Below are positions 6,408-27,822 of a DNA stretch of 64,000 bases, piece after piece. Source of the DNA: Aporhodopirellula rubra (GTDB lineage: Bacteria > Planctomycetota > Planctomycetia > Pirellulales > Pirellulaceae); NCBI RefSeq assembly GCF_014192335.1, contig NZ_JACHXU010000013.1, positions 124,001 to 188,000 of the forward strand. The letters are read 5' to 3'. Position 1 is the first letter of the stretch, and the number at the start of each line of letters is the position of its first letter. Both the position numbers and the translations under genes were made by a program. The notes beneath the pieces are model-generated. The model saw only the letters and a list, made by a program, of their open reading frames with translations. It did not search any database and had not been told where the DNA came from.

Positions 6408-6496
6408 CGGGCTCTCTGTTCACCTTTGACGCCTTACGTTAAGTTTTGCCGCATTCCCTGGTTTGACCTCTTTACGCAAGACGTTTTGGTAGTTTG

Positions 6497-7933
6497 ATGA
6501 ATCCGGACACCGATGAACCGCCCGAGTTGGTCCACAGTGATTTCCGTGTGCTCGTCGTCGACAATGAGGCCGCGCACGCTCGCGCGATGACCGAGAGCCT
6601 CGAGAAGGTAGGCTATCGTTGTGAAGTCGCGATCAGCGGGCCGCAGGCGGCGGATCTGATCCAGCGAGAAACGTTTGATATCGTCATCACCGATATGGTC
6701 ATGAACGATATCGACGGCATGAAAGTCTTGAAGCTCGCCCGCCAACGGTTGCCCGACTGCGAAGTCGTGATGGTGACCGGGCACGCGACGGTGCCGATCG
6801 CGGTCGAAGCGATGCAGAAGGGCGCGTTCAGTTTTCTCGAGAAACCGATCACGCCCTCGAGTCTGCGCGCGATCGCGGAAAAGGCGGCCGAGAAAGTCGC
6901 GCTGCGGCGGCAGAACACCGAGTTGATGCAGCGGCTCGACGAGCGGTTCGGTTTCGAAGGGATCATCTACACCAGCAAGAAGATGCAGACGGTTATCGAT
7001 CGTTTGCGCCGCATCGCGGCCACCGACGCAACCGTTCTGATCACCGGAGAAAGCGGCACGGGGAAAGAGATGGTCGCGCAGGCCATCCATCAAAACAGCC
7101 CGCGACGTAACAAACGGATCGTTGCGCTGAACACTCGCGCGGTGTCTGAGAATTTGGTTGAGAGCGAATTGTTCGGGCACGTCAAAGGATCGTTCACCGA
7201 TGCGGTGTCCGATCGCGAAGGTGCGTTCGAATACGCCAACGGCGGATCGTTGTTTCTCGATGAAGTCGGTGACATGCCGATGAGCACGCAGATCAAGTTG
7301 CTGCGAGTGCTCGAAGAGAATCAGATCACACGCGTTGGCGGCAATAAGTCGATCAAAGTGAACGTGCGGTTGATCTCGGCAACGAACCGCCCGCTCGAAG
7401 AGATGATTGAAGCCGGGACGTTCCGAAACGATCTTTATTTTCGTTTGAAGGTGGTCACGATTGAATTGCCGCCGCTACGAGATCGCCGTGACGATGTGAT
7501 CGCGTTGATGGACCACTTTCGAAAAATGTTTCTGCGGCGTCACGGTAAACCGACCGCCCATTTTGCTCCTTCGGTAACCAAGAAGTTCTACGCCTACGAT
7601 TGGCCGGGCAACATCCGTCAATTAAGGAATTTCGTCGAGACGATGGTCGTTCTCGATACAGACGGTTCGCTCGGTGAAGACGACCTACCGCCGGAACTGA
7701 TGGACGACGTTGAATCTGCCGATGGTGATACCGAAATGCCGGCGGGGTTGATCGACGGGCCGTCGGCCATGATCGGTCAGCCGTTGGCGACGATTGAAAA
7801 GTGGGCGATCGAAGAAACGTTGAAGCTCACCGGAAACAACCGCGAGCAGGCCGCCGAAATGCTCGGTATCGGAGCCCGAACGCTGTACCGGCGTTTGGAT
7901 CAATACAAGAAAGAGGAAGAAGAGTCGCAGTAG
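6497..7933 (+). CDS. NtrC-family response regulator, sigma-54 activator-type with altered GAFTGA motif
   Basis: The protein has 478 residues in three parts. A receiver domain (about 15-130) has the phosphoacceptor D66 in ITDMVM, acidic D22 and the Lys in EKPIT. An AAA+ domain (about 155-390) has Walker A GESGTGK (184-190), Walker B GGSLFLDEVGD and the R-finger region RLKVVTIELPPLRDR. A Fis-type HTH (about 440-470) reads NREQAAEMLGIGARTLYRRL. Loop 1, normally GAFTGA and needed to contact sigma-54, reads GSFTDA here (231-236). The central T is kept but the last G is Asp. No histidine kinase is adjacent. The ATG at 6497 was preferred over the TTG one codon earlier. It likely activates distant sigma-54 promoters; whether it controls the pilus genes downstream is unknown. 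Confidence 0.9.
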   Translation: MNPDTDEPPELVHSDFRVLVVDNEAAHARAMTESLEKVGYRCEVAISGPQAADLIQRETFDIVITDMVMNDIDGMKVLKLARQRLPDCEVVMVTGHATVPIAVEAMQKGAFSFLEKPITPSSLRAIAEKAAEKVALRRQNTELMQRLDERFGFEGIIYTSKKMQTVIDRLRRIAATDATVLITGESGTGKEMVAQAIHQNSPRRNKRIVALNTRAVSENLVESELFGHVKGSFTDAVSDREGAFEYANGGSLFLDEVGDMPMSTQIKLLRVLEENQITRVGGNKSIKVNVRLISATNRPLEEMIEAGTFRNDLYFRLKVVTIELPPLRDRRDDVIALMDHFRKMFLRRHGKPTAHFAPSVTKKFYAYDWPGNIRQLRNFVETMVVLDTDGSLGEDDLPPELMDDVESADGDTEMPAGLIDGPSAMIGQPLATIEKWAIEETLKLTGNNREQAAEMLGIGARTLYRRLDQYKKEEEESQ

Positions 7934-8117: not shown

Positions 8118-8462
8118 TCAATCTTTGATCGGGTATTCCAGCAGGCTGATCGGTGTTTCCGATTCGGCGATCTCTCGCAACCGGCGGTACGCTCGGCTGA
8201 CGCGCGTGGTTTGTTCAGCGACATACTTCGCGTCGAGTTGTCGTCTGTCGAATTCGCTATCGATGAAAATCATTTCGAAACGTTCGTCCTCGATGTATTG
8301 TGCGAGCACTGGGTTGCAACGGAGGTGGCGTTCAGGGGACACATGTAGTTTTTCGGCATCGAGTTGTCCGAGCACGTATCGCAAATAAAGATCGCTCTCA
8401 ACGATCGACGTCACTTCGTCGCCACAAACTTCGCACAGATAGCCTTGATCGCATTTTGCCAT
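8118..8462 (-). CDS. Conserved hypothetical protein, possible zinc-binding N-terminus
   Basis: The product has 114 residues and an unknown function. The N-terminus MAKCDQGYLCEVCGDEV offers C4, C10 and C13, and a further HLRC at residues 46-49 could complete a zinc site. The remainder is mixed alpha/beta with a charged helical stretch near the C-terminus (AKYVAEQTTRVSRAYRRLREI). The frame has good coding character (acidic and basic residues alternating, no low-complexity run). It converges on the sigma-54 activator, with that gene's terminator between them. It looks like a planctomycete-specific hypothetical. Confidence 0.7.
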   Translation of the reverse strand: MAKCDQGYLCEVCGDEVTSIVESDLYLRYVLGQLDAEKLHVSPERHLRCNPVLAQYIEDERFEMIFIDSEFDRRQLDAKYVAEQTTRVSRAYRRLREIAESETPISLLEYPIKD

Positions 8463-9283
8463 GAGTGGTTGGGGACGTTGGCGGGGATCGATGGGGTGAA
8501 AGCGGGATGAAAACTGGTGCGGGACCGTCGGCCGGATATCTTAACGCGTTCGAGGCAATCACGCGTGCCCCGTGTTTGATGTTGAGGCGAGTGACAGGCC
8601 CGCGAACAGAGTAGGTAGGCGAATGGTCGATGCAGGTGAGTTGCAAATATTGATGGTCCGTGCTTGCCTTGTTTGATTTCGTCGCGATGTTTCATGGTGT
8701 GTGGGTTGGATAAAATTGAAGGTCCTCGCGTGGGGGGAAACGGCCTTAGGTATCTCCTAGTCCGGACAATCGTTACAGGCGGGGCTTTTCGCTGACCATC
8801 GGGGTTCGACTGACCCATCTTTTTTGACTCGTCCTATTCCTGGCGTACTTTTCTGTAGTGAGAGAGCGAGACCCTTGGGTGGGTCTTGCTGCCAGGACGA
8901 ACTCTTGATCGGTGTGTTGCCGTTCTTGGGAGCGAGTTTTGGTCAGCCGAAGTTCCCTGACAAAGGCAAACCGTCCGAGAGGGCGGGGCGCAAAACCACG
9001 GGTCCGTGAGTCGGTCTGATAACGACGCATGTCGCGATTCAGGCTTGGCTTCAGGAAAGCCGAGTTGCCTGGCACTGGCGGTTGGTGGGTTGGATCCGAC
9101 ACGTTTCTTTATGCGACGTTTCGGCGAGAGTCCACCGGTCGTTGAACCGAGGCTTGTCAGACGTTAATTCGTACTTGATATGGCTGCTTTACGATCGAGC
9201 CGGCTCGCTGTGAGTCGTCTCATTTATCGTCGCCGGGTCGTTCGCCTTTGAAGGCGCTGCCCACGAATCGTCTGGAGATAGAC
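8463..9283. other. Long leader region upstream of the flp pilin gene
   Basis: This is 821 bp without a protein gene. It holds the putative GEMM riboswitch (8960-9072) and, upstream, the strand 8890-8904 able to pair with the riboswitch 3' end. It also holds a 12-bp perfect palindrome CGAGCCGGCTCG (9196-9207) and a small hairpin CGCCT/AGGCG (9243-9256) about 20 bp ahead of the pilin ribosome-binding site (GGAG at 9273-9276). The first 350 bp, next to the minus-strand hypothetical, contain GGGGT/ACCC followed by a T-run (8801-8825), a weak terminator-like hairpin with no plus-strand gene before it. Confidence 0.6.
8960..9072 (+). promoter_or_regulatory. Putative GEMM-I (cyclic-dinucleotide) riboswitch upstream of flp
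   Basis: The conserved elements occur in order. ACAAAGGCAAACC (8960-8972) is followed by a 6-bp stem CCGTCC/GGGCGG closed by a GAGA GNRA tetraloop (8971-8986). Next comes GGCGCAAAACCACGGGTCC (8987-9005), close to the family's GACGCAAAGCCACGGGTCT. A variable stem-loop (9004-9012 with 9036-9043) follows, and the 3' end AAAGCCGAGTTGCC (9056-9069) has TTGCC that can pair with GGCAA (8965-8969) to form P1. Two core positions differ from the consensus as I remember it, including G where the ligand-stacking A usually sits. Ligand choice (c-di-GMP or cGAMP) is therefore open. It begins 212 bp before the end of the flp leader, which fits known control of pili by these signals. Confidence 0.7.
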
Positions 9284-9457
9284 ATGAAGAAATTTGCAGA
9301 AAACGTTGTTGCATTCCTGAAAGAAGAAGACGGACCGACTGCGGTTGAGTACGCCGTTATGTTGGCTCTGATCATCGTGACTTGCTTGATCGCCGTTCAA
9401 AGCGTCGGCGACAACGCATCGGCTAAGTTCCAAGAAACTGCCGACATCCTCGCCTAA
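9284..9457 (+). CDS. flp: Flp/Fap-type class IVb prepilin
   Basis: The product has 57 residues and is the major subunit of tight-adherence (Tad) pili. The N-terminal leader MKKFAENVVAFLKEEDG ends in Gly17. The mature N-terminus PTAVEYAVML has the Glu5-Tyr6 pair that defines Flp pilins and leads into a hydrophobic helix (LALIIVTCLIAVQSV). The short length is typical. The start at 9284 is supported by GGAG eight bases upstream. It is the first gene after the putative riboswitch and is followed by a strong hairpin, which suggests abundant transcript of this gene relative to the rest of the cluster. Confidence 0.95.
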   Translation: MKKFAENVVAFLKEEDGPTAVEYAVMLALIIVTCLIAVQSVGDNASAKFQETADILA

Positions 9458-9482
9458 TCATTTTTGGCAGACACGAGGCCCT

Positions 9483-9523
9483 CCGCGAAGCATCCTTCTC
9501 ATGCTTCGCGGGGGTGACCTTTT
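9483..9523 (+). terminator. Strong hairpin after flp (terminator or attenuator)
   Basis: An 11-bp perfect stem CCGCGAAGCAT (9483-9493) / ATGCTTCGCGG (9501-9511) has a 7-nt loop. Three further pairs extend it outward. A short TGACCTTTTG follows rather than a long U-run, so it may leak, allowing some read-through into the downstream pilus genes. Confidence 0.75.
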
Positions 9524-9650
9524 GCCAAGAACGATCGCGACGACTCGCACCGAGGAAGCGGACGGAAGTTCAACCAGCAGTTGGTCTCCCGATCGCTTTC
9601 CTCGGTCGCCTGCGTCTAGAGAAAACCATCTTTTGAAACTGAGTAATCTC

Positions 9651-9827: not shown

Positions 9828-10385
9828 ATGTCCACTTTACTGCAAGCCATCACGGAAAATTGGACCATTTGGTTCGTTACTGTCGTCTTGATCGTCGCCG
9901 CCGTGATTGACGGTATGATCTTGAAGGTTCCAAACTGGCTGACGTTTCCTTTCATCATCTGCGGATGGATTCACTGCACGATCCAAGGCGGAATGCCGGG
10001 GTTGGGGTGGAGCCTGCTGGCAACGTTTGCCGGTATGATGATGTTGCTGCCACTGCGAAACGTAGGCGGCATGGGAGCCGGCGACGTGAAACTGCTCGCG
10101 GGCATCGGCGCCTGGTGCGGTCTCATGGTGACGTTGAAAGCATTCGCCGCGACGGCAATCGTCGGTGGGGTCATGGCTGCGTTCATGATTTGGAAGAGCG
10201 GCGACTGGGTGAAACACTATGCCCAAGCTCTCACCATTCTTAACGAATGGAAAACCGTCCGCGATCCAGAGAAACTCGCTGCGATTGCCCGCGAACGCAA
10301 ACCGACCATGTACCTGTTGCCATACGGAATTCCTATGGCAATCGGAACCATCATGTATTTCGCCGCATCTGGCATGATGGCCTAA
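9828..10385 (+). CDS. tadV: Prepilin peptidase of the Tad type (A24 family)
   Basis: This membrane aspartyl protease removes the leader of Flp pilin. The two catalytic aspartates are visible: D28 in AAVIDGMILKVPNW and D86 in the G-x-G-D motif MGAGDVKLLAGIG. The protein has 185 residues and about six hydrophobic segments. It lacks the N-terminal methyltransferase/zinc domain of PilD, as is normal for TadV/CpaA. The C-terminal segment contains an additional charged loop (NEWKTVRDPEKLAAIARERK) before the last helix. It follows flp and the small peptide gene on the same strand. CpaA is an alternative name for the same role. Confidence 0.92.
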   Translation: MSTLLQAITENWTIWFVTVVLIVAAVIDGMILKVPNWLTFPFIICGWIHCTIQGGMPGLGWSLLATFAGMMMLLPLRNVGGMGAGDVKLLAGIGAWCGLMVTLKAFAATAIVGGVMAAFMIWKSGDWVKHYAQALTILNEWKTVRDPEKLAAIARERKPTMYLLPYGIPMAIGTIMYFAASGMMA

Positions 10386-10440
10386 AGTCAAAATAGTAAA
10401 GATAGGGCTTCTGTTTCAGATGCCCGGCGTAGGTTTGAGT

Positions 10441-10487
10441 CGAACGCCCGGATTCTCCGATTGTAGGGGAGAGTCACCCGTCGTTCG
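10441..10487 (+). other. Nested stem-loop between tadV and cpaB
   Basis: The outer stem is CGAACG (10441-10446) / CGTTCG (10482-10487). The inner stem is TCTCC (10454-10458) / GGAGA (10468-10472). No T-run follows. It may be an mRNA processing or regulatory structure in the cpaB leader. Confidence 0.55.
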
Positions 10488-10545
10488 GATACCTGCGTGG
10501 ACCCGACCGTCTTTGACCATCTCGACCACCCATAGTTAGCCCGTC

Positions 10546-11625
10546 ATGAGAAATAAAACTGTTCCTTTGCTGATAGCGTGTGTTTGCGGCACGATCGCCG
10601 CGATCGGGCTGAGTCAATGGATGCAAGCTCAATCGACTGGCGAATCAACCGTCGGCACTGTCGAGATTTTCGTTACCGCGAAAACCATTGACATCGCCGA
10701 ACAAATCACTCCCGACAAGATCCGCCTCGAACAATGGCCAGCCGACCGAGTGCCCAAGGGCGCCAGTGGCAAGCTCGAGGACCTCGAGGGCAAATACGCT
10801 CGCCAGCGTTTCTACGAAGGCGAACCCGTCATGCCCGTTAAGTTGATGGACGATTCCAACGGTTCGTCGCAAACGATCCCTCGCGGTTTCAGCGTGGTGT
10901 CGATGCGAGCGGACCCCGAAAGCAGCGTTGCGACTTTGGTTCGCCCTGGCGACCGCGTCGACGTGGTTGCCTACTTTACAAAGAGCGAACTGATTCCCGA
11001 AACCATGGCAAAGACCGTGTTGACCGGAGTTCGTGTGTTCGCCGTTGATGGACGTACCGAACGTGAAAACACCGACGAAGAAAAGGAAGCCAAACCGGCC
11101 CGCTCGATCTCGTTGTTGATCAATAAGAAAGACACGCCGGCGTGGACCTACGCCAGCGAGCTCGGAAAGATCCGCCTCACACTTGGTAACCCGACCGACA
11201 TCGTCGATTCGACCTCCGGTGAAAATGGTAGCGGAGCTGGCCAAGAGTTCCTGACGTGGTTGTCGGACTATCAAGCGGCCCAAGCCGCTCGTGAAGAAGA
11301 GAGCAATCGACCAGCACCGAAGACTCCCGTTGTCAAACTTCCACCAACACCGGTGAAAGAAAAGAAGAAGGGATTCAAGATGCTCAAGATGTCCGGTGGC
11401 AAACTGACGGAGTACTGGATCGAAGATGGGAAACAAGTTCCCGTGATCTTGAACGAGTCAGGTCCTGACGGAATCAAAGAGAAGGAAGAGGAAGCTGATA
11501 ACAAAACAGCTCGGCCTGGTGCCGATCATCCCACCGCACCCGGTGACTACAGTTATCTCAATGGTTCGGAGAGCCCGTTCTACCAACCACCACCCCGCGA
11601 ACACGATGATCGTCCCCGCCAATAA
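10546..11625 (+). CDS. cpaB: Flp pilus assembly protein CpaB/RcpC
   Basis: This is the periplasmic partner of the Tad secretin, anchored by an N-terminal hydrophobic segment (VPLLIACVCGTIAAIGLS). An SAF-like domain follows (VFVTAKTIDIAEQITPDKIRLEQWP read as strand-turn-strand, about residues 40-100). Then comes the RcpC/CpaB core, with PRGFSVVSMRADPESSVATL and VRPGDRVDVVAYF, and a second beta domain (ARSISLLINKKDTPAWTYA, IRLTLGNP). The C-terminal 120 residues are a Lys/Glu/Pro-rich extension not usual for the family. They include KKGFKMLKMSGGKLTEYWI and are probably flexible. It lies between tadV and the secretin gene. Confidence 0.9.
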   Translation: MRNKTVPLLIACVCGTIAAIGLSQWMQAQSTGESTVGTVEIFVTAKTIDIAEQITPDKIRLEQWPADRVPKGASGKLEDLEGKYARQRFYEGEPVMPVKLMDDSNGSSQTIPRGFSVVSMRADPESSVATLVRPGDRVDVVAYFTKSELIPETMAKTVLTGVRVFAVDGRTERENTDEEKEAKPARSISLLINKKDTPAWTYASELGKIRLTLGNPTDIVDSTSGENGSGAGQEFLTWLSDYQAAQAAREEESNRPAPKTPVVKLPPTPVKEKKKGFKMLKMSGGKLTEYWIEDGKQVPVILNESGPDGIKEKEEEADNKTARPGADHPTAPGDYSYLNGSESPFYQPPPREHDDRPRQ

Positions 11626-11673
11626 CGTGGACGTCGTGTTGTCAGCAACGAAGGAACCTGGATTGTCGTTACA

Positions 11674-11786
11674 GTGAGAAACATTCTCACAGATCGTACT
11701 TTCCAAACAAGTCGCATCATCAGGCAGCAGCGTTACTGCCGATGAAACAAACAGTACCTCTATGGCGGTGTTCGTCGACATAGAGG
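11674..11786 (+). other. Two hairpins between cpaB and cpaC
   Basis: The first is GTGAGAA (11674-11680) / TTCTCAC (11684-11690) with a 3-nt loop. The second is CCTCTATG (11757-11764) / CATAGAGG (11779-11786) with a 14-nt loop, followed by GGCCTATTT. The second ends 29 bp before the chosen secretin start and overlaps an in-frame GTG, which argues against using that upstream start. Confidence 0.65.
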
Positions 11787-11815
11787 GGCCTATTTACTCG
11801 ACCCGACCGGCAAGG

Positions 11816-13615
11816 ATGCCAACGATGCGAGCGTGTTACTCGATATTCTCTATCCGTTCTCTTATCGCGTTTACCGCGATGATCGCATACGGATCTATTG
11901 CCGTACCAGCACTACGGCCTGCGTCCGCCCAATCGCTGGCTTCCGTTTCAGGTGATCATAAAATCGCCAACACGGTGGAGCGAATGGAGCTGATCGTTAA
12001 GACCAGCCGAATTTTGTCTTTGGGCGATCGCATTCCGCGATTCCAAGTCCACAACGAAGAGGTCCTCGGTGCCACGCCGGTGAGCGAAAATCAGATCCAG
12101 ATTTTCGCAAAGAACCCCGGCACCACCCAGGTCAACCTTTGGGACACTGAAGACAAACTCTACACGATCGACGTGACGATTGTCGCGGATGCTCGAGAGG
12201 TCGAGGGCATCTTGAATTCGCAGCTGCCGCTGGCGTCTCTCAAGGTCATGCCGATCAACGAGAGTGCCATCGTTTCGGGATTCGTCACGAGTGTTGACGA
12301 TGTGGAACGTGCAATCTCGATTATCGAGCAGTTCTACAAAGTCGTCATTAACAACATTGAAGTCGTTGGTGTGCAGCAAGTCTTGTTGCATACCCGGATC
12401 ATGGAGGTCAGTCGTACGAAGCTGCGTCAGCTCGGTATCGACTGGTCGCTCGCTCCGGGGAACTTCACGTTGCTAAACGGTCCTGGTGAATTGCTGAACG
12501 TTCCGGCCGGATTGGTCGAGGGCGACTCCGGTATTCTCGGGTTTGTTCCATTCGGAAGTGCCACGAACTTGCGTTTGAACGTGAACGGTGACTTCGAAGC
12601 GTTTGTCGAGGCGTTGGACGAACAGAAGCTCGTTAAGCTGCTCGCCGAACCAACCGTCGTCGCAACACACGGCCGTCCCGCACGATTCATCGTCGGTGGT
12701 CGCGTGCCTAACGTGGTTCCTGGTAACAACGGGCAGTTGCAGGTTGAGTACGAAGATTACGGAACGAGCATCGACTTCCTGCCCTTCGTGATCGGGCCTG
12801 GTCGAATTCGTTTGGAAGTCCGCCCGGAAGTCAGCGAGCCTGACCCGACCCGCGCCGTCGCCATTGGCAGTACAAACGTTTCGGCGTTCACAACGCGTTA
12901 TGTCGAAACCGCCGTTGAAATGCAGGCCGGTGAGACATTCGCGATCGCAGGTTTGTTGCAGTCACGCGTCGAAAGCACTGTCAAACGTACGCCTTTCCTG
13001 GGGCACATCCCGTTGCTCGGAGCCTTGTTCCGCAACACGCAGGACCAACACAATGAAATCGAATTGCTGATCATGGTGACGCCTGAACTCGTTGACGCGA
13101 TGGCACCTCACCAGGTACCACCAGGTGGCCCGGGGCTCAACTCCGACTTGCCGGATGATTACGAGTTCTACATCAACGGTCACATCGAAGTACCGACCCT
13201 GAAGAGCGACCAATGCGAACAGGAAGGTGGAGCGTGTGGACCAGCCGATGCCGCCTTCCAGGGAGGCCAAGTGATCATGCACGACGGCTATTCGATGAAC
13301 AAAGCCGGTGCACCTGCGGCCAAGTCGCAGGCCGGTCCGGCGGCGGCAGGTCCGACCCAATCGGTCGCGGCTCGTCAATTGCCACAACAAGTGCGTACGC
13401 CACCGACGGCATTCGAAGGGCCTAGCCTGATCGAACCGCCGGCGGCCCGCATCGCCACCGCACCACGCGGTAGCGTTCCAGCATCCTATTCGAAACCGAC
13501 CGGGGCATCGCGTTTCGAAAGTGGAACTTTGCTTCCCGCAGGTGCTGTCACGCCAACGTCCGAACCGAAAACGGTTGGGCAAGGCGTGTCGGTTTTCATG
13601 CCGACGCAAAAATAA
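11816..13615 (+). CDS. cpaC: Tad pilus secretin CpaC/RcpA
   Basis: This is the outer-membrane ring through which the Tad pilus passes. The product has 599 residues. A signal peptide (SLIAFTAMIAYGSIAVPALRPASA region) is followed by the N-terminal pilus/BON-like domain (ELIVKTSRILSLGDRIPRF; GTTQVNLWD). Then come the secretin N-domain and the C-terminal secretin barrel. The latter has the signatures VEALDEQKLVKLLAEPTVVA, GRPARFIVGG and the characteristic TPFLGHIPLLGALFR. After the barrel (about residue 440) lies a 150-residue Gln/Pro/Ala-rich tail, longer than in typical CpaC, that may reach a pilotin or the cell wall. The start could be 11816 or 11825. Confidence 0.93.
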   Translation: MPTMRACYSIFSIRSLIAFTAMIAYGSIAVPALRPASAQSLASVSGDHKIANTVERMELIVKTSRILSLGDRIPRFQVHNEEVLGATPVSENQIQIFAKNPGTTQVNLWDTEDKLYTIDVTIVADAREVEGILNSQLPLASLKVMPINESAIVSGFVTSVDDVERAISIIEQFYKVVINNIEVVGVQQVLLHTRIMEVSRTKLRQLGIDWSLAPGNFTLLNGPGELLNVPAGLVEGDSGILGFVPFGSATNLRLNVNGDFEAFVEALDEQKLVKLLAEPTVVATHGRPARFIVGGRVPNVVPGNNGQLQVEYEDYGTSIDFLPFVIGPGRIRLEVRPEVSEPDPTRAVAIGSTNVSAFTTRYVETAVEMQAGETFAIAGLLQSRVESTVKRTPFLGHIPLLGALFRNTQDQHNEIELLIMVTPELVDAMAPHQVPPGGPGLNSDLPDDYEFYINGHIEVPTLKSDQCEQEGGACGPADAAFQGGQVIMHDGYSMNKAGAPAAKSQAGPAAAGPTQSVAARQLPQQVRTPPTAFEGPSLIEPPAARIATAPRGSVPASYSKPTGASRFESGTLLPAGAVTPTSEPKTVGQGVSVFMPTQK

Positions 13616-13666
13616 CATGTGACTTGGTTTTTCTGTCGCCGCGGACCATTCGCGTCGAAAATGATA

Positions 13667-13692
13667 GGGCACTCTGCTTCGGTTGAGTGCCC
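13667..13692 (+). terminator. Hairpin between cpaC and tadZ
   Basis: GGGCACTC (13667-13674) pairs perfectly with GAGTGCCC (13685-13692) around a 10-nt loop that contains CTTCGG. The following GTTCCTTC is only weakly U-rich, so partial termination or mRNA protection is as likely as full termination. Confidence 0.65.
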
Positions 13693-13789
13693 GTTCCTTC
13701 GAGAAGATTTGCCTCCGTTGGCATCGACTTAAAGGGCTCGGCTCCCGCGCCGAAATCCAACCCCATCCCTTCGTTCATGATGATCTACG

Positions 13790-15025
13790 ATGAGTAATGT
13801 TCTTCGATTGGCCTTGGTCGATCCCAACGACTCTTCTCGCGAACAGTTAAAAGCGATGCTGTTGGGTATGGATTCGATCTGGCTCGAAGCGGACTGTTCA
13901 CGCTACGAGTTCTTTCCCGATATCGTCGAACAAACCACACCCGACGTTGGCGTGGTGTCTCTCGACAGCAATCCCGTCTCGGCGATCAACCTGATCACGC
14001 GAATCACCGCCGAATGTCCGGGAACGGCATTGCTCGCCGCGAGTGAAAGCAGTGACGGCCAGCAAATCTTGAAAGCCATCCGGGCCGGTGCTCGAGAATT
14101 CTTAACCCTGCCGCTGAACGACCAAGAATTATCCGAGGCTCTCGACCGAATCAGCATGGCGAAATTCGGTGGCGGAGACTCCCGCAACCGATCGTGCGAA
14201 GTCATCGCGGTCGCGGGCGCAACCGGCGGCGTCGGTTCGACCAGCACGGCGGTCAATTTAGGTTGTGTACTCGCGGAGGAGCCTCGGAATAGTGTTGCCC
14301 TTGTTGACCTTGATATTGCGCTCGGTGATGCGGATGTGTTTCTCGATGCAATTCCGGATTATACGCTCGCCGATGTCGTACAGAATATCAGCCGACTCGA
14401 TATTCAATTGCTCAAACGTTCGCTCACCAAGCACTCGTCCGGTTTGTACCTTCTCCCGCGCCCGGTCGAATTGCACGATGTCGCCGGTATCGACTCCGAA
14501 AGTCTGCGGAAAGTCATCGGGTTGCTCAAGGCGTCGTTCACACACCTGATCATTGACCTGTCGAAGACCTACAACGATCTCGACATGGTCGCAATCGAGG
14601 CGGCGTCACGTGTGATGTTGATCACACAACTCGATCTGCCTTGCCTTCGAAACGTCGTGCGATTGATGATGAGCTTCGACGAGACCGAAGGGTTGCAAGA
14701 CAAGGTCGACATCATCGTCAACCGCGCCGGTCTCGACGCGGGGCAGATCAGTTTGAAGAAGGCGAAAGAAACGCTCGGTCGAGACATCTTCGCGTTGCTG
14801 CCGAACGATTACCGGACGATGGTCGAGGTGCGAAACAACGGTGTGCCGTTGATCACGCAAGCACCGAAGGCCGCGTTGACGCAAGCGTTCCGGGACATGG
14901 CGACCCGGATCGGTGGCGATCACGGTGGCGAAGCTCAACCGGATCCACAAGAATCGGATGCCGGTGCCGCCAACGAAAGTCGTTGGAAACGATTCTGGCC
15001 TGGGCAAACGAAAGCCAAATCCTAA
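13790..15025 (+). CDS. tadZ: Pilus assembly ATPase-like localisation protein TadZ/CpaE
   Basis: The product has 411 residues. It has an N-terminal receiver-like pseudo domain (LRLALVDPNDSSREQLKAML ... LTLPLNDQELSEAL, about 1-125) and a MinD/ParA-type domain (about 135-390). The deviant Walker A reads AVAGATGGVGSTSTAVNLG: the signature lysines of the MinD KGGVGKT motif are absent, as reported for atypical TadZ proteins. VALVDLDIALGDADVFLD is Walker A' and HLIIDLSKTYND the Walker B region. It is expected to place the Tad machine at a cell pole or site. It is the last pilus gene here; the motor ATPase TadA and the TadB/TadC platform genes are not in this window. Its stop overlaps the convergent neighbour's stop by 4 bp. 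Confidence 0.88.
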   Translation: MSNVLRLALVDPNDSSREQLKAMLLGMDSIWLEADCSRYEFFPDIVEQTTPDVGVVSLDSNPVSAINLITRITAECPGTALLAASESSDGQQILKAIRAGAREFLTLPLNDQELSEALDRISMAKFGGGDSRNRSCEVIAVAGATGGVGSTSTAVNLGCVLAEEPRNSVALVDLDIALGDADVFLDAIPDYTLADVVQNISRLDIQLLKRSLTKHSSGLYLLPRPVELHDVAGIDSESLRKVIGLLKASFTHLIIDLSKTYNDLDMVAIEAASRVMLITQLDLPCLRNVVRLMMSFDETEGLQDKVDIIVNRAGLDAGQISLKKAKETLGRDIFALLPNDYRTMVEVRNNGVPLITQAPKAALTQAFRDMATRIGGDHGGEAQPDPQESDAGAANESRWKRFWPGQTKAKS

Positions 15026-23587: not shown

Positions 23588-23868
23588 GGATCGGAACTCC
23601 TGTCAAACGATCTTCTGGGTCAGATACACGTTCCTATGTAGCAATCCGGCCCGAGCGGTCGCAACGCTGATTCAGCCCTCACGGGCGTCTTCCTGGTTGT
23701 TTCATTCGCGAATTTCTGCCGCCGAATTCAGCCTTCGCGCCGCACCCGGAACTTTAGTAGAAGTCAAAAAAGAATCGTAAAAAGTTCGATCTCGCGTTTC
23801 GCGTGCTGTTCTCCTTTGCTGATCGTTCTTTTTCCCGTCTCCACGTTCCTTTTGTCTGTCCGACTGCT

Positions 23869-25206
23869 GTGAATTCTGTCGCATCCACCGCCGAAAACGA
23901 AGCTCGACGTGCCGCGTCGCTGCGTCGGATCGCGATCGTGTTGCAGGATTTGCCCAAATCAATCGCCAAAAGTCTGCTCGCGGACCTCTCTCCTGAGGCT
24001 CGGCAGCGAATCCGTCACGAGGTGGCAAACCTCATCGATGTCGATCCGATGGAGCGACGACGGGCACTCGAATCGTTCACCGGATCGCTCCGCCGAGGCG
24101 CCGCACGACAACAGGACACGGCCCCGTCCAACGGCACCGACGAAATCACGCTATCGCATTCTGCCCACGCGGCGGCCGCCTACCAGCCTCATCTCGCGGG
24201 CACTCGAGAGAAGGGCACCCGAGAAAACGGGGGCCGAGAGAATTCGGCCCGCGCGGCGTCGAATCACTCGCCGCAGAATCATGATAGCCCGTCCGCTCAA
24301 TCGCTCGAATTTCTCGGCGAGGTCAGCGACGAGGATTTGTTGAGCCTACTTAAAGACGAACATCCGCAAACCAAAGCCGTCGTTCTCTCGCAGATCGCGC
24401 CTTCGCGTGCGGCCGCTTTGTTGCCGCGACTCGGCCCCGCTCAGCGACAAGATCTCCTCACCCGGATCGGACGACTGCACACGCTCCCCGAAGAAATGCT
24501 GTCAGATTTGGCGAGCAGTTTTCGCTCCCGTGTCGAACGCATGACCACCACACGCAGTCCCAACCCGTTGCAGAGTTTGATCGACGCCTACGGCGCGGGC
24601 CAACCAATCGACCCCGCAACTGCGGCGAGTCACGTGCCCTCATCAGCCGCCGCCGTGTCGCCCCGATTGCAAGCGATCTTGGCGGAGATGCCTTCGTCAA
24701 CGCCACCAAATAAAAACAACCATTCCGAAGCGTCACCCGCTTCTCACGTTTCGACTGATGATACGCAGGAGTCCGCCGCGGATCGGTTACGACGGATCAC
24801 TCGCGATGAACCCAACGCCCCAACAAGTAACGCCAGTGAACCCCAGGCAGCCACGAGTGCGTCGAACGCTAACCGTGGGTTATCGACCGATGAAATTCAT
24901 CAGGAACTCGTGAAGTTGCCGCCGCGAAAATTGTGCGAAGCCCTCGGCCGAGTAGAAACTCGTAGTGCGATTTTGGCGTTGTGTGGATTGCCGAACAAAG
25001 TGGCCGATGCGGCGATCGGATGTCTGCCGCGAGCCCAAGCCAATCAGGTCCGTCAGCGATTGATGGCCGTCGGTTCTTTGGAGATTCGTGATATCGATCG
25101 TGCCAAAGAAGCGGTCGCCGCGGCCGCACAAATCAGCACCCAGTTGTCTTCGCCCGCCACGCCGACCGTCGGTGTTCCTCAACCACGGGTAGCCGTTGCG
25201 ATGTGA
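23869..25206 (+). CDS. fliG: FliG-like flagellar motor switch protein, divergent
   Basis: The product has 445 residues. The N-terminal domain (SLRRIAIVLQDLPKSIAKSLLADL) is FliG-like. The middle domain has the conserved E-H-P-Q-T motif in LLKDEHPQTKAVVLSQIAP. The C-terminal domain (LGRVETRSAILALCGLPNKV ... VGSLEIRDIDRAKEAV) aligns with FliG_C. Two low-complexity linkers join them (about residues 70-150 and 265-345), longer than in typical FliG. By hand alignment to E. coli FliG, K264 corresponds to Cys and the D288-D289 pair to Gln-Arg, so the usual torque-site acidic residues are lost. I chose the GTG at 23869 as start because the sequence upstream is not protein-like. It heads a cluster with fliH, fliI, fliJ and fliK. 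Confidence 0.8.
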   Translation: MNSVASTAENEARRAASLRRIAIVLQDLPKSIAKSLLADLSPEARQRIRHEVANLIDVDPMERRRALESFTGSLRRGAARQQDTAPSNGTDEITLSHSAHAAAAYQPHLAGTREKGTRENGGRENSARAASNHSPQNHDSPSAQSLEFLGEVSDEDLLSLLKDEHPQTKAVVLSQIAPSRAAALLPRLGPAQRQDLLTRIGRLHTLPEEMLSDLASSFRSRVERMTTTRSPNPLQSLIDAYGAGQPIDPATAASHVPSSAAAVSPRLQAILAEMPSSTPPNKNNHSEASPASHVSTDDTQESAADRLRRITRDEPNAPTSNASEPQAATSASNANRGLSTDEIHQELVKLPPRKLCEALGRVETRSAILALCGLPNKVADAAIGCLPRAQANQVRQRLMAVGSLEIRDIDRAKEAVAAAAQISTQLSSPATPTVGVPQPRVAVAM

Positions 25207-25363
25207 CAAGCGTCGTTGAGTGCCGCGGACGCTGCGGAGTTCAGGGGCTGCGTCACGCGATACGCGTTTTTCCCAACTCGACGTCGGAAATATCCCAAGC
25301 GATGCCTCGCGTCGAATTCGCCTCTTCAACCACGCTTAGATTCCCTTCGCTACCAATCGCTCC

Positions 25364-26308
25364 ATGGCCACCATTGTTAAATCCGACTCCGCGTCGGCTC
25401 CAACGACGCCCGCCGCCGAGCATTCGACTCCGGCGACGGGAGTGTCCGTGCCGGCAGGTCGATCCCGGCGTGTGATTAAAACCGTATCGGTTGCCCCTGA
25501 CGCTCCGTCAACGTCAAAGGCATCGGATTCGCTCGCCCCGGCGGGAACGGCGGGAGTGTCGGGACGTATCTCCGGTGCAACGATCGGCAAACATGAGGCT
25601 GGCAAGACCGGTTTGGCGGAGTTCAACCTGTCGGATTTGGCAGACGAGGGGCGGAAGCAAATTCAGCGATGTCAACAACAGGTGGACGCGATGCTCGCCG
25701 AAGCCACCAAGCAAGCCGAAGAGCTGCGAAAGCAAGCCCGCGTCCAAGGGCACAGTGACGGAACCCAAGCGGCGATCAAAGACATCGAGCAACGCGTCAA
25801 TCGCGAAGCGGAAGCGAAAGCGAAAAATCAGGTGCAGTCGTTGCACCAAGCCGTCGAGCAAATGAAGCGGCAGTACGATGATTGGATGCGGCAGTACGCC
25901 GAGGTCCTGACCACGACCGCAATCGCAGCCGCCGAACGCCTCACGCGTTCGCAACTCGTTCTGCCCAATGCGGAGGACGGGTATGCGGTAACCGAGTCAC
26001 CGAAGGCATCCAATGATAACGAGAACGGCGACGAACCCGCCGAGCATCTTCTCGTTCGATGGGCGCGCGAGGCGCTGCACAGCACGCGTTCGGCGAGCCG
26101 GTTGACGCTCGCGGTTCATCCCGACACGCTCGCGCAGCTCGGTAAGGCTCTCGACGAATTACTCGCGAACCCTGATTTGCCCGAGCAGTCGATGGTTATC
26201 CCTGACGAAACGTTGAAGGTAGGCGACGTGATCGTCCGACAAGACGGCGGCGAAATCTCCGCCGGTCTCGACGCTCAACTCAACCGCTTGCGTGAGGAGC
26301 TATTGTGA
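25364..26308 (+). CDS. fliH: Flagellar assembly protein FliH-like
   Basis: The product has 314 residues. FliH regulates and links the FliI ATPase to the export gate. After a Pro/Ser/Ala-rich N-terminal 90 residues there is a long helix with charged repeats (EGRKQIQRCQQQVDAMLAEA, KQAEELRKQARVQGHSDGTQ). The typical FliH C-terminal domain follows (LLVRWAREALHSTRSASRLT, LAVHPDTLAQLGKALDELL, DETLKVGDVIVRQDGGEISA). The last line holds the G-D-x-x-V/I-x-x-D/Q-G-G-x-I-D/S-A motif of the family. It overlaps fliI by four bases with a shared GTGA, so translational coupling is likely. Confidence 0.88.
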   Translation: MATIVKSDSASAPTTPAAEHSTPATGVSVPAGRSRRVIKTVSVAPDAPSTSKASDSLAPAGTAGVSGRISGATIGKHEAGKTGLAEFNLSDLADEGRKQIQRCQQQVDAMLAEATKQAEELRKQARVQGHSDGTQAAIKDIEQRVNREAEAKAKNQVQSLHQAVEQMKRQYDDWMRQYAEVLTTTAIAAAERLTRSQLVLPNAEDGYAVTESPKASNDNENGDEPAEHLLVRWAREALHSTRSASRLTLAVHPDTLAQLGKALDELLANPDLPEQSMVIPDETLKVGDVIVRQDGGEISAGLDAQLNRLREELL

Positions 26309-27822
26309 GCAACGTTCCCACACTCGACCTGCCTCGTCTTCCTGATGCAGATGCCACCGCCGCGTCGTTGCGCAAAGCGGTCATGTTTCAAGTTCGCGGT
26401 CGTGTCGCGTCGGTGACCGGTGACGCCGTCACCGTGCAAGGCATGACGGCGCCGTTGGGCGCTCTTTGTGAGTTGCAACCACCCGGCGCGCCGGCAACGC
26501 TCGCTCGTGTGATTGGGTTTGACGATACGCGGCCGATTCTGGCGCCGATGGAACCGATCACGCGATTGGCTGCGGGGGATCGTGTTCGATTGGTCTCTCA
26601 CGCGTTGACCTTGCGTGTCGGGCAATCGTTGTGCGGGCGGATCGTGGACGCATTCGGACGCCCGATCGACGGGCGACCTCTCAGCGACGATTTGATGCGT
26701 GTTGATGTTTCTCACTCGTCACCCGATTCGCTCTCTCGCCCGCCAATCGATCAACCATTGCAAACCGGTGTGCGAGCGATCGACGCGATGTTGACGTGCG
26801 GTATCGGTCAACGACTCGGGATCTTTGCCGGTTCCGGTGTCGGTAAAAGCACGCTGTTGGGCATGATCACTCGCGGCACGAACGCGGACCGCGTCGTCAT
26901 CGCGATGGTCGGCGAACGAGGACGTGAAGTCGGCGAATTCATCCAACGCACCCTCGGCACCGAAGGACTGAAGAAAAGTGTCGTGGTGGTGGCGACCAGT
27001 GACAAACCCGCCGCTCAGCGATTATCGGCAGCCTACACCGCGACCAGCATCGCCGAACAATTTCGCGACGAAGGACACAACGTCTTGTTGTTGGTCGACA
27101 GTGTTACACGATTCGCGATGGCGCAACGTGAACTCGGGCTCGCAGCGGGCGAACCGCCGACGACTCGCGGGTATCCGCCGAGTGTTTTCAACCTGTTGCC
27201 GCAACTCGTCGAACGTGCCGGACGGACTGAGAAGGGATCGATCACCGCATTCTATACCGTGTTGGTTGAGGGGGACGACAATAACGAACCCATCGCCGAT
27301 ACCGTTCGCGGTTTGCTCGACGGGCATATCGTGCTGAACCGTAAACTCGCTCACCGTGGACACTTTCCCCCGATCGATATCCCCGAAAGTGTCAGTCGAC
27401 TGCAGAACCATCTCGTGACACCGGAGATTGCCAACGCCGTTTTGAAAGTTCGCGAGCACATGGTCCAGTACGACAACAGCGAAGATTTGATTTCGATCGG
27501 CGCCTATCGCCAAGGAAGTGATCCCCGGATCGATGCCGCGATCGCAATGCGTGACCCCATTAACATTCTGCTGCGGCAACACAGCGACGATCAAACACCG
27601 ATGGAGATGTCGCACCAGATGGTGATGAAGTTGGCCGCCGCACAAACCGTCCCCGCGAACCCGGCCGTAGCTGGTAACGGCGGCGCGCAGGCTAACGCGG
27701 CCGCACAAGCAAACGCGGCCGCACAAGCTAACGCGGCCGCACAGGCAAACGCGGCCGCCGCTGCGGCAAATGCCGCCCAAGCCAACGCGGCCGCACGTCC
27801 CAATTCAGCCGCGGCAGGATAA
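26305..27822 (+). CDS. fliI: Flagellum-specific ATPase FliI with repeat-rich C-terminal tail
   Basis: This export ATPase of the flagellar type III system is related to F1 beta. Walker A is GIFAGSGVGKSTLLGM (about residues 171-186). VIAMVGERGREVGEFI, the Walker B region NVLLLVDSVTRFAMAQRELG, EPPTTRGYPPSVFNLLPQLVERAG and SRLQNHLVTPE are all conserved. The start is GTG at 26305. After the normal C-terminus (about residue 447) there is an unusual tail of about 55 residues made of Q-A-N-A-A-A units, encoded by an 18-bp DNA repeat. The family does not have such a tail, so it is probably a recent expansion. It lies between fliH and fliJ. Confidence 0.95.
   Translation: MSNVPTLDLPRLPDADATAASLRKAVMFQVRGRVASVTGDAVTVQGMTAPLGALCELQPPGAPATLARVIGFDDTRPILAPMEPITRLAAGDRVRLVSHALTLRVGQSLCGRIVDAFGRPIDGRPLSDDLMRVDVSHSSPDSLSRPPIDQPLQTGVRAIDAMLTCGIGQRLGIFAGSGVGKSTLLGMITRGTNADRVVIAMVGERGREVGEFIQRTLGTEGLKKSVVVVATSDKPAAQRLSAAYTATSIAEQFRDEGHNVLLLVDSVTRFAMAQRELGLAAGEPPTTRGYPPSVFNLLPQLVERAGRTEKGSITAFYTVLVEGDDNNEPIADTVRGLLDGHIVLNRKLAHRGHFPPIDIPESVSRLQNHLVTPEIANAVLKVREHMVQYDNSEDLISIGAYRQGSDPRIDAAIAMRDPINILLRQHSDDQTPMEMSHQMVMKLAAAQTVPANPAVAGNGGAQANAAAQANAAAQANAAAQANAAAAAANAAQANAAARPNSAAAG
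27688..27795 (+). repeat. 18-bp tandem repeat inside fliI (Q-A-N-A-A-A units)
   Basis: Units of CAR-GCN-AAC-GCG-GCC-GCA run at 27688, 27706, 27724, 27742 and 27778, with a degenerate unit at 27760. Each contains GCGGCCGC. The repeat is in frame, so copy-number change would lengthen or shorten the tail without a frameshift. Confidence 0.95.

Follow-up and report, generated by a model that had tools for sequence, protein, structure and literature searches.

In the planctomycete Aporhodopirellula rubra, the leader of flp, a Tad pilin gene, carries a canonical c-di-GMP-I aptamer that, in our judgment very probably, is a riboswitch controlling this gene. The DNA analyzed, called the window here, is a stretch of 64,000 nucleotides. 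Its sole Rfam match at gathering thresholds (cmscan) is to RF01051 (c-di-GMP-I, GEMM-I); it scores 52.6 bits, where the gathering cut-off is 35, and has an E value of 2.1e-7 for the 64 kb searched. It is also the one RF01051 match in the 8.5-Mb genome, and none of 14 control genomes had a match. This score bears out an earlier sequence-only reading that had proposed a GEMM-I aptamer from the order of its core blocks, all of which are present: GGCAAACC (8965-8972), CGCAAA (8989-8994), CCACGGGTC (8996-9004), and GCCGAGTTGCC (9059-9069). The coordinates of the aptamer and of the features around it are collected in Table 1.

TABLE 1 Features of the flp leader and Tad locus in window coordinates
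Feature	Position	Strand	Basis
Promoter-like pair TTGACT - 16 nt - TACTTT (8824-8829, 8846-8851)	8824..8851	+	aligns in 13/13 genus genomes
CAGCC; pairs with X (9151-9156) or, as candidate P0, with GGCTG 9182-9186	8944..8948	+	invariant in genus
c-di-GMP-I (GEMM-I) aptamer, P3 lengthened	8955..9072	+	RF01051 52.6 bits, cut-off 35
G20 equivalent, contacts one ligand guanine	8965	+	RF01051 alignment; numbering from presumed Vc2 sequence and PMC3764141
P2, GNRA-capped; arms 8971-8976/8981-8986, loop GAGA 8977..8980	8971..8986	+	motif check
Position 43, supposed stacking G of the sequence-only reading	8988	+	G in window
A47 equivalent, stacks between ligand guanines, canonical A	8992	+	RF01051 alignment
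P3 extension, genus-specific	9003..9054	+	alifold pairs, columns 104-114/150-161 of alignment A1
C92 equivalent, pairs with other ligand guanine	9068	+	RF01051 alignment
Element X (GAACCGAGGCTTGTCAG)	9144..9160	+	nearly invariant in 11 genomes; in alifold consensus
GGCTG, candidate 3′ strand of P0	9182..9186	+	aligns with GGCTG of other genera
Hairpin HP-M	9197..9219	+	covariation over 28 leaders
Hairpin HP-A, just 5′ of Shine-Dalgarno region	9235..9262	+	GGG/CCC base kept in 11/11
Small predicted hairpin GTCT-GGAGAT-AGAC, ends at start codon	9270..9283	+	kept in 11/11 genus members
flp, Tad pilin, 57 aa	9284..9457	+	PF04964 33.2 bits, cut-off 32.2
Rest of Tad cluster	9828..15025	+	Pfam
Prepilin peptidase	9828-10385	+	Pfam PF01478
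RcpC/CpaB	10546-11625	+	Pfam PF16976
Secretin	11762-13615	+	Pfam PF00263
TadZ-like ATPase	13790-15025	+	Pfam; TadZ_N match below cut-off

The aptamer and its locus

Helix P2 is present in the consensus fold (alifold) of 11 leaders of the genus. P3 is lengthened, with 41 positions in place of 10 of the RF01051 consensus, and three of the four apical pairs of its extension show changes on both sides in that fold. As to the proposal that the 3′ end of the aptamer can form helix P1, the flanks can pair, but P1 in the window is weak, consisting of two pairs (8952-8953/9074-9075), a mismatch, and two further pairs (8955-8956/9071-9072). In 8 of the 11 genus members P1 is possible as UUCC/GGAA.

The gene downstream was correctly taken for a Tad pilin gene, since its PF04964 score exceeds the cut-off and Tad genes follow; flp stands beside genes for a prepilin peptidase, RcpC/CpaB, a secretin, and a TadZ-like protein, the composition of a Tad pilus locus. 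The aptamer precedes flp, as had been stated, with 211 nt between it and the start codon. The 821-bp leader given for it is, however, the intergenic distance to a divergent open reading frame (ORF) (8118-8462, minus strand). As judged from the promoter-like pair, transcription would start near 8858-8860 and yield an RNA leader of about 425 nt; a generic sigma-70 consensus scan made no call at 8824-8851. Upstream of the Tad cluster, positions 6494-7933 encode a sigma-54-dependent response regulator (PF00158, 235.7 bits; PF00072; PF02954). Farther along the window, at 23803-27822, are ORFs that we take, by resemblance, to encode flagellar FliG, FliH, and FliI.

Conservation within the genus, family, and phylum

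Conservation upstream of flp, which the sequence-only reading had expected of a genuine element, is seen in the genus and also in the family. Eleven of 13 genomes of the genus carry the aptamer, each with one located 173 to 230 nt before the flp start codon. The remaining two (G045 and G091; L147 and L148) lack an RF01051 match and retain a relative of flp (58 and 64% identity) behind a short leader, together with the promoter-like pair and, judged from sequence, the divergent neighbor. Because flp and the promoter-like pair persist there without it, the aptamer is a separable piece of the leader, and these two genomes are natural controls. Each of the 11 aptamer-bearing genomes also encodes a second, more distant Flp copy, none of which lies, by coordinates, near any of the 15 aptamer places of the genus; four genus genomes have a second aptamer elsewhere. 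The exact 32-nt core was found in at least four named records (Aporhodopirellula aestuarii, Rhodopirellula europaea, R. sallentina, and Neorhodopirellula pilleata), in a search that may miss records very near the window's own, and in no viral contigs.

Across the family, RF01051 matches 116 of 199 genomes, a count that takes in the window's own. Among the 150 places and 150 Flp matches listed, at least 49 aptamers (48 genomes) lie upstream of a Flp pilin, 47 of them at 166 to 251 nt from the Flp domain. Our family set comprises 117 aptamers out of 156 places noted; a flp start was assigned to 59 of these, under 15 genus labels, and at least two more aptamers (G003:C74 and G101:C547) run into a Flp-like ORF. 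At one locus (L018:794-1763) the aptamer sits between two nearly identical flp genes, and by coordinates it is likewise placed between flp copies in other genomes of genus g37 (G111, G164, and G172 among them). Of 69 genomes sampled from the phylum, 27 have an RF01051 match, again counting the window's; a crude motif scan of 25 loci, one per genome, detected no Flp, with a regular expression that missed 7 of the 25 aptamers. One 3.6-Mb planctomycete genome of that sample (G247) contains 35 RF01051 matches.

Structure of the leader 3′ of the aptamer

The consensus fold of the 11 genus leaders contains 72 pairs, 12 of which are changed on both sides, some of them in HP-M and in the lengthened P3. 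It is a fold without the ligand-bound junction: G20, A47, and C92 are hidden in pairs between 8990-8993 and 9065-9068 and between 8956-8958 and 8964-8966, and 8944-8955 is paired with element X. This modeled arrangement, whose pairs are invariant and show no covariation, may be the ligand-free state. Pairing of element X with 8944-8948 and 8952-8955 would put it in competition with P1; the element shows no covariation because almost nothing in it varies.

The CAGCC strand has a second potential partner, GGCTG, with which it would form a long-range helix, P0. In the genus fold CAGCC pairs with element X and not with GGCTG, and the GGC of 9182-9186 pairs with 9232-9234. A gapped duplex test found that the duplex of a leader with itself was overall no better than duplexes formed across genera. 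In an ungapped test the best helix was similarly placed, with covarying letters, in six genera (g19, g20, g33, g44, g53, and g56), each modest when taken alone (0.01 to 0.34 of shuffles were as good); the other genera, the window's included, gave no consistent place or significance in this test. P0 is a candidate helix that draws on genera other than the window's.

Closer to flp, HP-M was evaluated in 28 leaders of five genera, in which 87.9% of cells were paired and 37 cells carried changes on both sides; shuffles gave 12.7, and none of 500 was as high. We set the registers by eye, working from the loop, a choice that favors the hairpin; sliding the strands out of register strongly lowered the signal. 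The count leaves out G175, which has no such hairpin, G037, whose hairpin is one base longer, and G148, G179, G185, and G186, which duplicate included rows. At the place of HP-A, genus g46 has a hairpin with changes on both sides. The small hairpin at the start codon holds the Shine-Dalgarno GGAG (9274-9277) in its loop and is without covariation because it hardly varies.

A model (R1) built from nine g46 leaders was searched over 94 sources with E values up to 1. It returned 32 matches, the nine training leaders and 23 others, and all 23 fell between the aptamer and the start codon of flp leaders. By genus, R1 matched 9 of 11 leaders in g1, 9 of 11 in g37, both in g38, and 3 of 4 in g29; none was matched in g55 (0/1), g7 (0/3), or a second group of genera (0/17). 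There were also no matches in 28 aptamer loci lacking an assigned flp start or in eight Flp loci lacking an aptamer. Eleven of the 23 matches, including all nine of g1, had E values of 0.05 to 1. The window was unmatched even when 8900-9300 was searched alone, and 9 of the 10 other leaders of its genus were matched, all weakly (E 0.05 to 1). That a structured stretch reaching from aptamer to start codon is common to the flp leaders of several genera is plausible, not settled.

Proposed direction and level of control

We propose that c-di-GMP would bind at the P1/P2/P3 junction and stabilize the aptamer over the competing ligand-free fold, that the roughly 210 nt separating the aptamer from the start codon would then refold, and that this refolding would alter ribosome access to the flp start. 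That flp is the gene under control we regard as highly probable. That c-di-GMP turns the pilin on is likely, by analogy to c-di-GMP riboswitches of pilin and adhesin genes and given that Tad pili serve attachment. PMC4744006 describes a class II riboswitch for c-di-GMP that switches on a pilin gene of Clostridioides difficile and a class I riboswitch, Vc1, that promotes gbpA expression. Translation is, on balance, our favored main level of control.

Start-site access was computed for 59 leaders with the aptamer forced in the Rfam register and P1 taken as the best short helix. The forced aptamer changed the cost of opening the region from Shine-Dalgarno sequence to start codon by 0.12 kcal/mol on average; opening became easier by more than 0.5 kcal/mol in 7 leaders and harder by more than 0.5 kcal/mol in 11, with 41 in between. 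No common sign emerged, so these computations lend support neither to a translational level nor to either direction. For the window's own leader, the forced aptamer core lies 8.0 kcal/mol above the free ensemble, and the penalty grows when P1 is forced. A c-di-GMP-I element that binds without regulating is described in PMC11218506 (Bc1 of Bacillus thuringiensis).

The same riboswitch could instead act on transcription, through intrinsic or Rho-dependent termination within the long leader, a course we consider possible and rather unlikely. The 211-nt gap gives room for it, short U-tracts follow HP-M in some relatives (G046, G141, and G055), and a scan of 8460-9600 gave five terminator-like sites, HP-M (9201-9217) among them, where shuffled sequences averaged 1.4. 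The U-tract is, however, absent in the relatives G130 and G187 and interrupted in the window (UCUCAUUUAU). The sites other than HP-M comprise three located 5′ of the aptamer and a fourth that is past flp and on the minus strand. Conserved intrinsic termination in particular was rejected, as no regular U-tract follows HP-M.

The RNA might also serve in trans as a c-di-GMP sink with no cis control of flp, in the manner of the Bdellovibrio merRNA, an abundant c-di-GMP-sink RNA. The length of the leader and the lack of a consistent change in computed start-site access when the aptamer was forced are compatible with this, but the narrow spacing between aptamer and flp over many genera and the structure shared up to the start codon in several of them fit control in cis, and we hold a sink to be very unlikely.

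The ligand site has the canonical c-di-GMP contacts

Vc2 numbering was placed on the window through what we take to be the Vc2 sequence and the RF01051 alignment. In Vc2, according to PMC4744006, c-di-GMP is contacted by G20, A47, and C92; PMC3764141 lists C22, A23, A25, G32, A35, G42, C44, G45, A47-A49, and G83 as also conserved. The window is canonical at G20, A47, and C92, and the interhelical pair C44-G83 is canonical as well (C8989 and G9059). The sequence-only reading had suspected a differing ligand specificity on the grounds that the base stacking between the ligand guanines was G instead of A. That G occupies position 43 (G8988), where 79 of 117 family aptamers have A and 38 have G; position 47 is A8992, and altered specificity by an A-to-G change at the stacking base is ruled out. 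The GAGA tetraloop on which the reading also relied is indeed present, but it is an ordinary GNRA loop and no mark of altered specificity.

Could the aptamer nonetheless sense 3′,3′-cGAMP or another dinucleotide, given the reading's suggestion of a different specificity? The variant model RF03167 (c-di-GMP-I-GGC) scores 56.9 bits at the window, above the 52.6 bits of RF01051, but it falls short of its cut-off of 59. Position 47 is G in the RF03167 consensus and A8992 in the window, so the aptamer is placed outside that family. The cGAMP-selective GEMM-Ib aptamers, the 3′,3′-cGAMP riboswitches of Geobacter, share the fold and are marked by A at position 20. The window has G8965 there, whereas A20 occurs in relatives (G116 and G175). 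With G20, A47, and C92 all canonical, we regard cGAMP or another ligand as a most improbable reading and c-di-GMP as very probably the ligand in vivo. With 14 GGDEF and 3 EAL matches in its genome, this organism very likely makes c-di-GMP. As for a chance origin of the RF01051 match, the E value of 2.1e-7, the aptamer at the same place in 11 of 13 genus genomes, and the absence of matches in 14 control genomes rule it out for all practical purposes.

Among the 117 family aptamers, a regular expression read 113 with G, 3 with A, and 1 with C at position 20, and 116 with A and 1 with G at position 47. The odd C20 and G47 readings come from the second aptamer of G003:C74, where the first motif reads GGGTAAACC and the expression consequently caught a second CGCGAA, in P3. 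The three A20 aptamers are G116:C9:17877-17980 (L109) and G175:C1:87952-88056 (L115), both in flp leaders, and G174:C29:920962-921046 (L034, L134), the second aptamer of its genome. A pattern search for A20 matched 89 of 199 family genomes, and a reversed control pattern also matched widely; among the matches listed, only those of G116, G175, and G174 were full aptamers by eye. A further match, in G050:C305, has the P2 arms, yet no RF01051 match. In G020, on many contigs, dispersed repeats (AAGCAAACGAAA...ATCACGCAAAG) matched the pattern 18 times and are not aptamers by eye. A structure of a G20A GEMM-I RNA with cGAMP is cited in PMC6274999. A G20A lineage with a retuned ligand is plausible, not settled.

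Aptamers before other genes

No flp start was assigned to 58 of the family aptamers; in 53 of these cases an ORF of at least 90 residues begins within 700 nt. Ten such ORFs, picked by eye, were compared with Pfam: six were TadE/TadG-like, one was CheW, one was a response-regulator receiver, and two had no match. Aptamers before TadE, TadG-like, CheW, and response-regulator genes (L130, L029, L066, L120, L056, L090, L027, and L061) possibly form a pilus and chemotaxis regulon.

In several genera, non-flp aptamers are followed at 11 to 82 nt by the start of a recurring predicted protein that carries the motif EE(D/N/Y)W(E/Q) ... (S/A)PQ (L128, L133, L134, L035, L084, L092, L080, L083, L091, L025, L071, L123, and L126); the two examples scanned had no Pfam match. 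Divergent aptamer pairs about 0.9 kb apart occur at L120 (G068:C84:92302-93331) and L123 (G101:C98:48247-49274).

Discussion

The aptamer itself is ordinary. With RF01051 members such as Vc2 and Vc1 it shares the three-helix architecture, the GNRA loop of P2, the ligand-contacting G20, A47, and C92, and the C44-G83 pair; it differs from them in its lengthened P3, its weak P1, GAGA in place of GAAA, and the roughly 210 nt that separate it from flp. The class II riboswitch of C. difficile offers a functional parallel, in that a pilin gene is under the control of a c-di-GMP RNA acting as an On switch (PMC4744006), but it belongs to an unrelated RNA class and governs another pilus type, through a type IV pilin. 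The genetic setting is well supported, and among the titles and abstract openings searched, which leave subscription journals largely outside, we found no published description of a c-di-GMP riboswitch before a Tad/flp gene in planctomycetes.

More tentatively, and with somewhat less than even confidence, we suggest that the aptamer may be the input of a larger, undescribed structured leader of a Pirellulaceae type, comprising element X, P0, HP-M, HP-A, and the Shine-Dalgarno hairpin and fixed before the Tad pilin gene, an input that in G116 and G175 would have been retuned by G20A, possibly to cGAMP. The long leader is a place to study how a c-di-GMP-I aptamer acts over about 200 nt, and the natural G20A aptamers are material for studying ligand switching.

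The change from swimming to sessile cells is a central question of the Rhodopirellula life cycle, and the proposal is testable in cultured Rhodopirellula. If it is true, the aptamers found ahead of TadE/TadG-like, CheW, and receiver genes would extend it to a pilus-wide RNA regulon, and in a large family of planctomycetes the Tad pilus would be a direct target of c-di-GMP at the RNA level. These bacteria probably set the production of their pilus directly by the biofilm messenger c-di-GMP.
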